Shown: positions 38,185 through 42,285 of the stretch, one piece after another | How positions within the stretch are numbered: position 1 is the stretch's first letter | Layout of the letters: the number at the start of each line of letters is the position of its first letter | Source: Aliarcobacter sp. | GTDB lineage: Bacteria; Campylobacterota; Campylobacteria; Campylobacterales; Arcobacteraceae | NCBI GenBank assembly: GCA_028690445.1 | Contig: JAQVBE010000004.1 | Span: 97,181-161,180, forward strand | Direction of reading: 5' to 3' | DNA length: 64,000 bases | The notes under the pieces: model-generated | Database searches by the model: none | Told to the model about the DNA's origin: nothing | What the model saw: only the letters and a program-made list of their open reading frames with translations | Position numbers and translations under genes: made by a program

Positions 38185-38880
38185 TTAATTTCCAGTTCTT
38201 ATATAGTTGTTAAATTTATCTAAATTTTCTTTATATCCAATTGCTACTAAAGTATCATCAGCATCAATTTTATGATTTTTAGAATATGAATTAAATATAA
38301 AATCCTTACTTAATTCATTATCGGTTAATCCAATTATTATGACATTAAAATCTCTACTAAAATCAAAATCTTTTAAATATTTACCATCTAAATAAGAACC
38401 TTTTAATATAGGAAATTCTTCAATATTTAATAGTGAATCTCCAAATAAAATTTTATCTAATACATGGGAAATAATCGGTTTATCTAATAATCTAAACATT
38501 CTTAGAGCACCAATTTCATAAGGATTAATTACTTTTGTAGCACCAGCTAATAACATCTTTTTGCTATCTGATTTACTACTAGCTTTTGATATGATTCTAA
38601 TCTTTTTATTTAAATTTCTTGCTGAAAGTGTAACAAAGAAGTTATTATTTGAAGAGTCACTTACACAATAAAATGCTTTAACATTACTTTCAATTCCTAT
38701 TTCAATCAACTCTTCATCTTCTAACAAATCTTTATTAAAAGTATTATAACCATCTAATATTGCTTTATTATAATTATCTTCATCATAATCAACTATAATT
38801 ATTTCAAATTTCGTATTTTTTAAACTTTTGGCAATTTTACTTCCAAGATTACTATATCCATAAATTATTACTTTTGACAT
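38185..38880 (-). CDS. RCK/TrkA-N type K+ channel regulatory protein
   Basis: A 231-aa cytoplasmic protein. The Rossmann domain starts VIIYGYSNLGSKIAKSL and has the acidic nucleotide-binding residue in IIVDYDED. The C-terminal TrkA-C-like part is about 150-230. It has no membrane segment. It follows the channel gene by 1 base and shares blocks with that protein's own RCK part (for example ARxLNKKIRIISxASxSxSKK). So it was probably derived from it and may form mixed gating rings. Confidence 0.82.
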   Translation of the reverse strand: MSKVIIYGYSNLGSKIAKSLKNTKFEIIIVDYDEDNYNKAILDGYNTFNKDLLEDEELIEIGIESNVKAFYCVSDSSNNNFFVTLSARNLNKKIRIISKASSKSDSKKMLLAGATKVINPYEIGALRMFRLLDKPIISHVLDKILFGDSLLNIEEFPILKGSYLDGKYLKDFDFSRDFNVIIIGLTDNELSKDFIFNSYSKNHKIDADDTLVAIGYKENLDKFNNYIRTGN

Positions 38881-38881
38881 A

Positions 38882-40444
38882 TTAAACCCTAAAATCTAAA
38901 TTTATTAAATCAGATTTTAATTGTGAAATCGAACTTTTAAAACCAATAATTACTAAAATATCATTTCTTTGAACTTTATAATCAATATTTATAGGATTAA
39001 AAATAAATTCATTTAAATTATTTAAGTTGATAATACCTAAAAGTGTCAAACTATAATTATTAAAGTTAATTAAATTTATATTTTTATCAAGTATTTTAGA
39101 ATTTCCAACTATTTCAACTTCATCAATAACTACATCAAAATCTCTATTTAATAAAATCCCATCAATTGCTTCAAAAGCAACTGGTTGTCCTAAATATTGG
39201 GATGCAACAAAAGCAGTAACATCATTAAATAATATTGTTTTATTTACACCTGCAATTTCAAATTTCTTTTTTGAATTACTATTATTTACCCTTGAAATAA
39301 TTTTAATTTTTTCATTTAATGCCCTAGCACTTAAAACTATGGATAAATTTATTGCATCATCATTTGTAAGAGCAACAACAGAATTTGCACCCTTGTTTAT
39401 TCCCATCATTTCCAAAGTTAACATATTAGTTGCATCAGCTTGAATTGCTAAATAATTGAGATTTTTAGCACTATTTACTGCTTCTTTATCACTATCAATT
39501 ACTATAAATTTTTTTCCTACATTCAATAATTCTTCACAAAAATATTTTCCCATCATTCCAAAACCACAAACAATAACAAAATCTTTCATTTTTGAAGTTT
39601 CTGATTGAACTCTATTTTCCTTAATAATTTCCATTCTATCTGATAAACCTGTTGTTATAATAGATGTACCAAAAGCAATTACTAAAAAACTAGAAATAAC
39701 CAGAACCAAAGTTACAAGTTTCCCCTCAACAGTTATAGGTGTAACATCGCCATAACCTACAGTTGAAATAGTAATTATTGACCAATAAACAGCATCAAAA
39801 AAATCAACAATATTTGGATTTACACCTTCTGGTCCTTCGTATAAAAAAATAACTGTTGACGAAAAAAATACAACAGTAATATATAAAAGTCCTAGAGTAA
39901 AAAGTTCAAACTTTCTCTCTTTAAATACTTGTAAAAATTCTTTTAAAGAATTTGCATATCTTAAAATTTTAAATAATCTGAAAATCAGAAGAATTCTTAA
40001 AAGTCTTAAAGGCCTATAATAAGGTAAAATTGCTAATAAATCTACTATTGCCATAGGAGAAAGTATAAAATCAATTTTTCTTGAAATAACTCTTTGTATA
40101 GATTTAGTTATCTTATATTTTTTATTTAAGAGTTGATTATTCTCATAATCTTCTATGATTATACTATGAATATCTGAACTAATCCATAATCGTCCTATAT
40201 ACTCAATTGCAAAAATAACAACTGCAAAAAGTTCATAATCAGTTAATAATCTTAAGTTTTTATGATTTACTTCAAATATCAAAATTCCAATTGTACTAAG
40301 AACTAAAAAAATCATTACCATATCAAAATATTTTTTATAGTGATATGAATTATTTTCTAATAAATTATAAGTAAAAGTTTTAAATCTCTTATATTTAGTG
40401 GAAGTTTCTAGTTTGTATGCTAATGAAATTATATATTTAGTCAT
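38882..40444 (-). CDS. Voltage-gated-type potassium channel with RCK domain
   Basis: A 520-aa inner-membrane channel. Six membrane segments are predicted in the first 260 residues. An arginine-rich S4-like segment (RPLRLLRILLIFRLFKILR, about 145-163) and the selectivity filter STVGYGDVTP (about 227-236) are visible. A cytoplasmic RCK domain follows, with VCGFGMMGKYF and VIDSDKEA, then a TrkA-C-like end. It conducts potassium under ligand and perhaps voltage control. Co-transcribed with the separate RCK protein. Confidence 0.9.
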   Translation of the reverse strand: MTKYIISLAYKLETSTKYKRFKTFTYNLLENNSYHYKKYFDMVMIFLVLSTIGILIFEVNHKNLRLLTDYELFAVVIFAIEYIGRLWISSDIHSIIIEDYENNQLLNKKYKITKSIQRVISRKIDFILSPMAIVDLLAILPYYRPLRLLRILLIFRLFKILRYANSLKEFLQVFKERKFELFTLGLLYITVVFFSSTVIFLYEGPEGVNPNIVDFFDAVYWSIITISTVGYGDVTPITVEGKLVTLVLVISSFLVIAFGTSIITTGLSDRMEIIKENRVQSETSKMKDFVIVCGFGMMGKYFCEELLNVGKKFIVIDSDKEAVNSAKNLNYLAIQADATNMLTLEMMGINKGANSVVALTNDDAINLSIVLSARALNEKIKIISRVNNSNSKKKFEIAGVNKTILFNDVTAFVASQYLGQPVAFEAIDGILLNRDFDVVIDEVEIVGNSKILDKNINLINFNNYSLTLLGIINLNNLNEFIFNPINIDYKVQRNDILVIIGFKSSISQLKSDLINLDFRV

Positions 40445-42042: not shown

Positions 42043-42117
42043 ATTAACCTTTTAAAATGTTATTTATTATATCTTTTTTTAAATAAAAAAAGAAAAACTG
42101 TGTTTTGATTGTGTTTG

Positions 42118-42148
42118 TTATAAATTGTAATTATAAAAATTTATAATT
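42118..42148 (-). promoter_or_regulatory. Alternative stems after the leuA leader peptide
   Basis: One inverted repeat pairs 42129-42136 with 42141-42148 and overlaps the leader stop codon. A second pairs 42118-42126 with 42138-42146. They share bases and cannot form together, as expected for an attenuator switch. Both are AT-only, so their stability is uncertain and no strong terminator hairpin was found. Confidence 0.35.
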
Positions 42149-42224
42149 AGAGAGAAAAAGAAAGAAGCAGAAGAGAGTTTACACTTTTGATGAAATGGTT
42201 TTTATAAAAATCAAATATTTTCAT
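42147..42224 (-). CDS. leuA leader peptide (25 aa, leucine-rich)
   Basis: A short reading frame, ATG at 42224 to TAA at 42147. Its peptide begins MKIFDFYKNH and ends with SVNSLLLLSFSL. Four leucine codons in a row (CTT CTG CTT CTT) and a fifth before the stop make 5 of the last 8 residues leucine. AAGGAG lies six bases upstream of the ATG. It sits between the leuA promoter and leuA. By analogy with enterobacterial leu leaders, ribosome stalling at these codons under leucine limitation would change the downstream RNA fold. Confidence 0.75.
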   Translation of the reverse strand: MKIFDFYKNHFIKSVNSLLLLSFSL

Positions 42225-42256
42225 ATATCTCTCCTTGTTTTGTTTTAAAGTGTTTA

Positions 42257-42285
42257 AGTATAATTAATAAATTTTAATTTGTCAA
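42257..42285 (-). promoter_or_regulatory. leuA promoter
   Basis: On the minus strand TTGACA (42280-42285) is followed after exactly 17 bases by TATACT (42257-42262). The predicted transcript start is near 42250, about 26 bases before the leader peptide. Confidence 0.7.

Follow-up and report, generated by a model that had tools for sequence, protein, structure and literature searches.

Leucine leaders and related control regions

In the usual textbook picture, amino-acid attenuation depends on regulatory codons and competing RNA hairpins, and the sequence of the leader peptide itself is free to drift. The enterobacterial leuL, with its GC-rich terminator and antiterminator, is a system of this kind that governs leucine synthesis. 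The tnaC leader of Escherichia coli is Rho-dependent: a ribosome stalled in the leader keeps Rho off the RNA, residues of the nascent chain matter, and the signal is an excess of free tryptophan. In Campylobacter jejuni, LeuL was named from transcription start sites by Porcelli 2013 (PMC3847290), in passages that propose attenuation, note that LeuL RNAs end shortly past the leader stop codon, and report orthologs across most of the Epsilonproteobacteria that carry leucine genes, from a set of 42 genomes that included three Arcobacter species. Passages of a 2025 study (PMC11955535) use Ribo-seq start-site peaks to show that LeuL is translated in C. jejuni, and report that leuL hits by tBLASTn were generally confined to C. 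jejuni or related Campylobacter. Passages of PMC1262725 describe leaders of Actinobacteria that lack terminators, with Rho suggested for some of them, and PMC12121999 links a stall-sensing leader frame to Rho in one case.

As far as these passages go, a leucine leader before leuA is a published kind of control region, and the supposition of the original prediction that leucine attenuation was undescribed in this group falls. In the open-access literature we found no paper stating a role for Rho or for the nascent chain in LeuL or the leucine leaders of the group, nor did the string PKIEIKN lead to one. What goes beyond the passages of the earlier LeuL papers is the lack of an intrinsic terminator, a conserved GATATAAT box, and amino-acid selection on the residues that precede the Leu codons.

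The locus considered here lies in a stretch of 64 kb of Aliarcobacter DNA (the window). Judged from its sequence, it is very probably leuL, a leucine leader-peptide control region in which a tiny leucine-codon-rich gene would act as the leucine sensor (Table 1). Like the enterobacterial leu attenuator, it has a Leu-codon leader peptide before leuA; unlike it, neither terminator nor antiterminator was found, and Rfam gave no match at the gathering score. The proposal developed below resembles tnaC in that a stalled ribosome would exclude Rho and nascent residues would matter, but the expected signal is scarcity of leucyl-tRNA rather than an excess of free tryptophan. Like the Campylobacterota LeuL, as the available passages present it, it is a frame of 20 to 35 amino acids with a Shine-Dalgarno (SD) sequence and terminal rare Leu codons, directly upstream of leuA. 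It departs from the 28-residue LeuL of C. jejuni in its canonical TTGACA promoter, FIKSVN core, and candidate second promoter before leuA, C. jejuni-like genomes having another core. In the passages of PMC1262725, the LEU element of Actinobacteria likewise places a leader ORF carrying a Leu run ahead of leuA; its Leu codons pair with the SD of leuA, and a pseudoknot was proposed for it, whereas here CUCU next to the Leu codons could base-pair with the SD of the leader itself.

Layout of the locus

The promoter P1, one of the features predicted at the outset, is the sole match in the window with one mismatch to TTGACA-N17-TATAAT (the sigma-70 consensus with a 17-nt spacer), and both TTGACA and TATA.T are kept in an alignment of 46 distinct relatives. 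The sequence equally bears out the predicted 25-codon frame with its AAGGAG site, four consecutive Leu codons and a fifth at the end, and leuA, placed about 105 bases beyond, starts 104 nt after the leader stop. We take this gene to be leuA from a 13-letter protein motif and general knowledge of the family; among the best 80 of 492 named loci, its closest named relatives come from MAGs of Aliarcobacter, at 98-99% identity, and from Arcobacter caeni, at 96%. Downstream of leuA (38185-40444, minus strand), two frames follow that are by eye potassium channel-like and TrkA-type-like, and no leuBCD is seen there.

Table 1. Elements of the leuL-leuA locus, with positions counted from the first nucleotide of the window
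Feature	Position	Strand	Basis or remark
Leader transcript promoter P1, TTGACA-17 nt-TATACT	42257..42285	minus	TTGACA 42285-42280, TATACT 42262-42257
Leader ribosome site AAGGAG / AGGAGAG	SD 42236-42231, site 42229..42235	minus	GGAGAG in 48/49 distinct loci
leuL leader ORF MKIFDFYKNHFIKSVNSLLLLSFSL, 25 codons and stop	42147..42224	minus	kept in 68/70 relatives
Conserved non-Leu core NHFIKSVNS, codons 9-17	42174..42200	minus	pN/pS 0.15 vs 0.91 for codons 22-25
Four-Leu run CTT CTG CTT CTT, codons 18-21	42162..42173	minus	CTN enrichment
Final Leu codon CTC (codon 25), before stop	42150..42152	minus	CTC in 43/43 25-codon leaders
AT-only hairpin starting at the leader stop codon	42128..42149	minus	-3.9 kcal/mol, z -8.4
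Unstructured C-rich, G-poor spacer, possible Rho-loading RNA with the Leu codons	42094..42127	minus	pooled base counts
Palindromic T-tract/A-tract, TCTTTTTTTA TT TAAAAAAAGA	42072..42093	minus	inverted repeat, arms 100% complementary
Candidate second promoter P2, -10 box TATAAT after GA	42066..42071	minus	conserved upstream of leuA
leuA ribosome site AAAAGG	42048..42053	minus	sequence and alignment of relatives
leuA, presumed 2-isopropylmalate synthase, 518 aa	40486..42042	minus	start 104 nt past leader stop

Conservation of the leader frame

Three sets of leuA loci were compared: 30 loci kept from a search of 60 genomes (that of the window and its relatives), the best 80 of 492 named loci, and 100 stretches chosen from the leuA places listed, leuA being present in 176 of 298 genomes of the phylum at E 1e-150. 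The Arcobacter-type clade was defined within these by LeuA identity of at least 81% (L001-L059 and L111-L121); as many of its loci were seen twice, its leaders amount to 49 distinct DNAs encoding 44 peptides. The search for Leu-run frames upstream of leuA that the original prediction had proposed as a check recovers the frame at 68/70 loci of this clade, with LxLL variants allowed, and the ribosome site GGAGAG is nearly invariant (Table 1). The two misses are a single contig, sampled twice, which ends 69 nt upstream of leuA.

A generic rule that asks for ATG, an SD, and a Leu run within 200 nt detects a leader in 49/54 distinct Arcobacter-type upstream regions, as against 0/1080 dinucleotide shuffles, 0/54 reverse strands, and 0/53 regions further upstream. 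The deeper lineages of the family to which this clade belongs vary, with other leaders in L062, L063, and L123 and none in L122 and L124. Of 134 distinct loci from beyond the clade, a leader is recognized in 94 by the generic rule or a class motif, and in the remaining 40 by neither; the generic rule alone accounts for 84/134, compared with 8/1340 shuffles and 3/132 further-upstream regions. Within the genome of the window the frame is single copy, bar one match at E 0.2 (L222); as that match is weak and flanked by frames that are presumably tatA-like and argS-like, it was taken as chance and rejected as a second copy.

Rare leucine codons at the end of the frame

CTN makes up 92.5% of the Leu codons of the leaders, compared with 29% in the 53 long frames of the window, where CTC is the rarest Leu codon (0.6%) and CTG accounts for 1.0%. 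CTC is the last codon in 43/43 ungapped 25-codon leaders, and CTCTAA or CTCTGA ends the leader in 46/49 distinct loci. The tRNA genes covered (39 places found, 19 loci scanned) include tRNA-Leu UAA twice and the UAG, CAA, and GAG species once each, so that the CUN codons are read by the single-copy GAG and UAG species, as opposed to the two-copy UAA. The leader peptide with regulatory codons that characterizes the classical trp-, his-, and leu-type attenuators is present. Separately, ARAGORN called a selenocysteine tRNA in the same genome (G000:C6:53377-53472; L267).

Selection on the residues preceding the leucine codons

Conservation of the leader extends beyond its Leu codons. Over the 43 leaders of 25 codons without gaps, codons 2-8 have a pN/pS of 0.35 and the Leu run one of 0.26, the minimum lying in the NHFIKSVNS core and the maximum in codons 22-25 (Table 1). 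In other families the leaders sort into classes, one of them made up of 41 distinct loci with LPKIEI[KR]N directly before the Leu codons. A search made without a fixed motif shows this core to be all-or-nothing: among the 134 distinct non-clade loci, 34 match it at 8/8 positions, six at 7/8 (K to R), none at 6/8, three at 5/8, and 91 at 2-4. Its synonymous codons vary freely, with four Pro, five Leu, and three Ile codons in use. Across the same 41 loci its amino-acid identity (0.97) compares with 1.00 for the 13-letter LeuA motif, and its nucleotide identity (0.80) with about 0.80; since the class was itself defined by the motif, this identity is partly built in, and the unbiased part is the missing middle of the match counts. 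A profile of the core hits 57 of 298 genomes at E <= 2.3e-9, the next best match being at 0.0036, and every one of the 57 directly precedes leuA in the same orientation, at a distance of 58-292 nt from the matched part. Because the core is all-or-nothing, free in its synonymous codons, and conserved like the LeuA motif, these comparisons indicate that it is under selection as amino acids, beyond what Leu codons or RNA alone would require. Pure codon sensing leaves this selection on non-Leu residues unexplained. Different cores in different classes would explain why a tBLASTn search misses such leaders. By eye, the leaders of L062, L063, and L100, with FKSTNLLLL and FKSLKFLPKIEIKNSLLLL, resemble intermediates joining the FIKSVN core to the LPKIEIKN core, as though some ten residues had dropped out.

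Residues conserved as amino acids besides the regulatory codons are what is expected of a ribosome arrest peptide, and the nascent LeuL chain may help to arrest the ribosome from within the exit tunnel, in a TnaC-like manner. Leucine or leucyl-tRNA would then set the arrest at the Leu codons, with FIKSVN required here and LPKIEI[KR]N elsewhere. The all-or-nothing core with its free codons, its LeuA-motif-like identity, and the placement of all 57 profile matches at leuA speak for such an arrest; the core nevertheless differs between clades, amino-acid selection would equally fit a peptide acting in trans, and the identity within the 41-locus class is in part a product of its definition. We regard arrest by the nascent chain as a tentative proposition, one that may overlap with the codon-sensing account favored below. 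Amino-acid conservation could also mean that the frame encodes a functional small protein with no part in sensing leucine. Neither Pfam nor NCBIfam yielded a family for it, but the confinement of all profile matches to the neighborhood of leuA and the clustering of rare Leu codons at the end of the frame make such a protein the most improbable of the alternatives.

RNA between the leader and leuA

No intrinsic terminator was found between leader and leuA in a scan of the window, nor in any of the 49 distinct clade loci (0/49), and an intrinsic terminator was accordingly rejected for this locus. In other classes the terminator rule is matched by 2/9 loci of class IV, 3/41 of the LPKIEI class, 0/9 of class III, and 1/5 of class V. 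The terminator hairpin and T-run that precede the structural gene in classical attenuators are absent here, as is a mutually exclusive antiterminator. The original prediction had envisaged two mutually exclusive stems, and of these only the hairpin at the stop codon holds up. The alternative stem has a predicted energy of only -0.9 kcal/mol, and where its 3' arm is AATTTATAA here, the near relatives L002-L005 have AATCACAA, so that mutual exclusion is not conserved and the pair of stems was discarded. The stop-codon hairpin, whose sequence varies, has z below -1 in 33/49 distinct loci and is not clear in the other 16; we give it as a fraction of loci, as one near-zero divisor distorts the mean. 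An alignment by MAFFT of 25 stop regions chosen from the 49 was too poor for its covariation to be scored.

These observations bear on the classical reading, in which the stop-codon hairpin would be an intrinsic terminator whose 5' arm is blocked by the stalled ribosome. The hairpin does begin at the stop codon and has z below -1 in a majority of loci, and in certain Campylobacter-type leaders (L186, L197, L199, L200, L202, and L203) a hairpin around the stop (-6 to -9 kcal/mol) takes its 5' arm from the last Leu codons, such that a stalled ribosome would block it directly. Against this, the hairpin here is AT-only with no T-run after it, no clade locus passes the terminator rule, about a third lack a clear hairpin, and the stop is unstructured in most loci of the LPKIEI type. 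We therefore consider classical attenuation unlikely.

In Sulfurovum-like genomes we observed another hairpin, TCTAAT-N-ATTAGA, 60-160 nt before leuA and mostly followed by CAATTT (L066, L067, L078, L090, L095, L096, L101, L103, L105, L110, L150, L151, and L166), with an inner stem that varies among ACCC/GGGT, AATCC/GGAT, and ATCT/AGAT; the pattern is also matched by 36/4200 shuffles. Its role may be that of an attenuator; alternatively, it may serve as an operator overlying a promoter box, TAAAAT. A short version, TCTAATT/AATTAGA, occurs at the leader stop in the Arcobacter-type loci L019, L023, L040, L042, and L044.

The RNA itself is C-rich and G-poor. Pooled over the 49 loci, the last 33 nt of the leader contain 488 C and 35 G, and the region that runs from the stop up to a point 20 nt short of the GATATAAT box 245 C and 90 G. 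Past the stop, C/(C+G) is 0.68 for the clade and reaches 0.75 for loci of the LPKIEI type, against 0.45 ahead of 128 other genes; a value of 0.73 is reached by 5.5% of control upstream regions, and a mild C richness (0.58) is seen ahead of the Arcobacter-type leaders as well. The whole leader RNA folds no better than its shuffles (z -0.16). The genome has a rho gene, and leuA is preceded by the kind of RNA expected for Rho-dependent leader attenuation, rich in C, poor in G, and largely unstructured. C richness alone does not prove a rut site, as Leu and Ser codons bring C themselves; still, with no terminator and RNA of this composition, Rho is the likelier terminator, and most likely it is Rho that would end transcription before leuA.

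From the AT-only stems it had been predicted that the mechanism could be either translational or Rho-dependent. The first half of this alternative fits the C-rich, G-poor RNA less well than the second. Translational attenuation would have the leader RNA mask the ribosome site of leuA for as long as no ribosome is stalled in leuL, and by eye a weak pairing is conceivable between AAAAGG and the T-tract ahead of leuA; however, the stretch from the T-tract through the leuA start folds no better than shuffles (z -0.15), and transcripts from P2 would escape the masking, which renders such control very unlikely. At the leader's own ribosome site, the GAGAG of the SD pairs with CUCU at the Leu codons (codons 17-19) in the predicted minimum-energy fold, and CTCT occurs within codons 15-20 in 49/49 distinct loci. 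Relative to synonymous recoding, the energy of this pairing lies below the null mean in 42/49 loci (mean rank 0.38), a modest excess, whereas tail pairing shows none (26/49), and the pairing was not retained as a feature. The tail does show A/T covariation (Fisher p 0.0002, by a statistic that ignores relatedness and leaves out C and missing rows).

A candidate second promoter

A feature that the original prediction did not name is the GATATAAT box, G[AT]TA[TC]AAT, which stands 23-29 nt before leuA in 49/49 distinct clade loci, with exact TATAAT in 48/49 as against 5.8 expected. On this conservation we propose it as a candidate second promoter, P2, of the Arcobacter-type clade. It does not extend to the phylum, for exact TATAAT occurs in 5/41, 3/9, 0/9, and 1/5 loci of the other leader classes, near the level of shuffles. 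A common promoter type within the genome finds no clear support either: the T/A tract ahead of P2 is the sole match in the genome with one mismatch, other matches being at control level, and the enrichment of TATAAT ahead of other genes is slight (12/46 vs 8.1 expected, one row being leuA itself).

Proposed mechanism and its implications

We consider it reasonably probable that leucine supply is sensed by stalling of the ribosome in leuL, with Rho ending transcription when no stall occurs and P2 acting alongside. Sequence and conservation provide the leader frame, its SD, the Leu codons, P1, the lack of a terminator, and the GATATAAT box; from these we infer the stalling, the parts played by Rho and the peptide, the activity of P2, and the response to leucine. 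RNA polymerase would begin at P1, with a ribosome following through leuL. With charged leucyl-tRNA plentiful, the ribosome would clear the rare CUN codons and release at the stop, exposing the C-rich, G-poor, largely unstructured RNA of the Leu-codon stretch and spacer, upon which Rho would most likely terminate transcription before leuA. With leucyl-tRNA scarce, it would stall at the Leu codons, perhaps aided by the conserved residues preceding them, and would shield both the C-rich RNA and the base of the hairpin at the stop codon, allowing the polymerase to reach leuA. In the Arcobacter-type clade, P2 would provide a basal supply of leuA independent of the leader.

A stronger form of this account, which we offer as more speculative than arrest by the nascent chain taken by itself, casts LeuL as a leucine-responsive arrest peptide: the residues before the Leu codons would program the stall, and the stall would mask a Rho site formed by the Leu codons themselves, with no intrinsic terminator involved. 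If so, sensor, stall site, and Rho site would be one and the same stretch of 30-60 nt. In the leaders described here the hairpins are missing or drifting, and in several families it is part of the peptide that is conserved, much like an enzyme active site. Should the nascent chain or Rho indeed act in this way, much of the phylum would control its leucine synthesis by a route different from the one usually taught.
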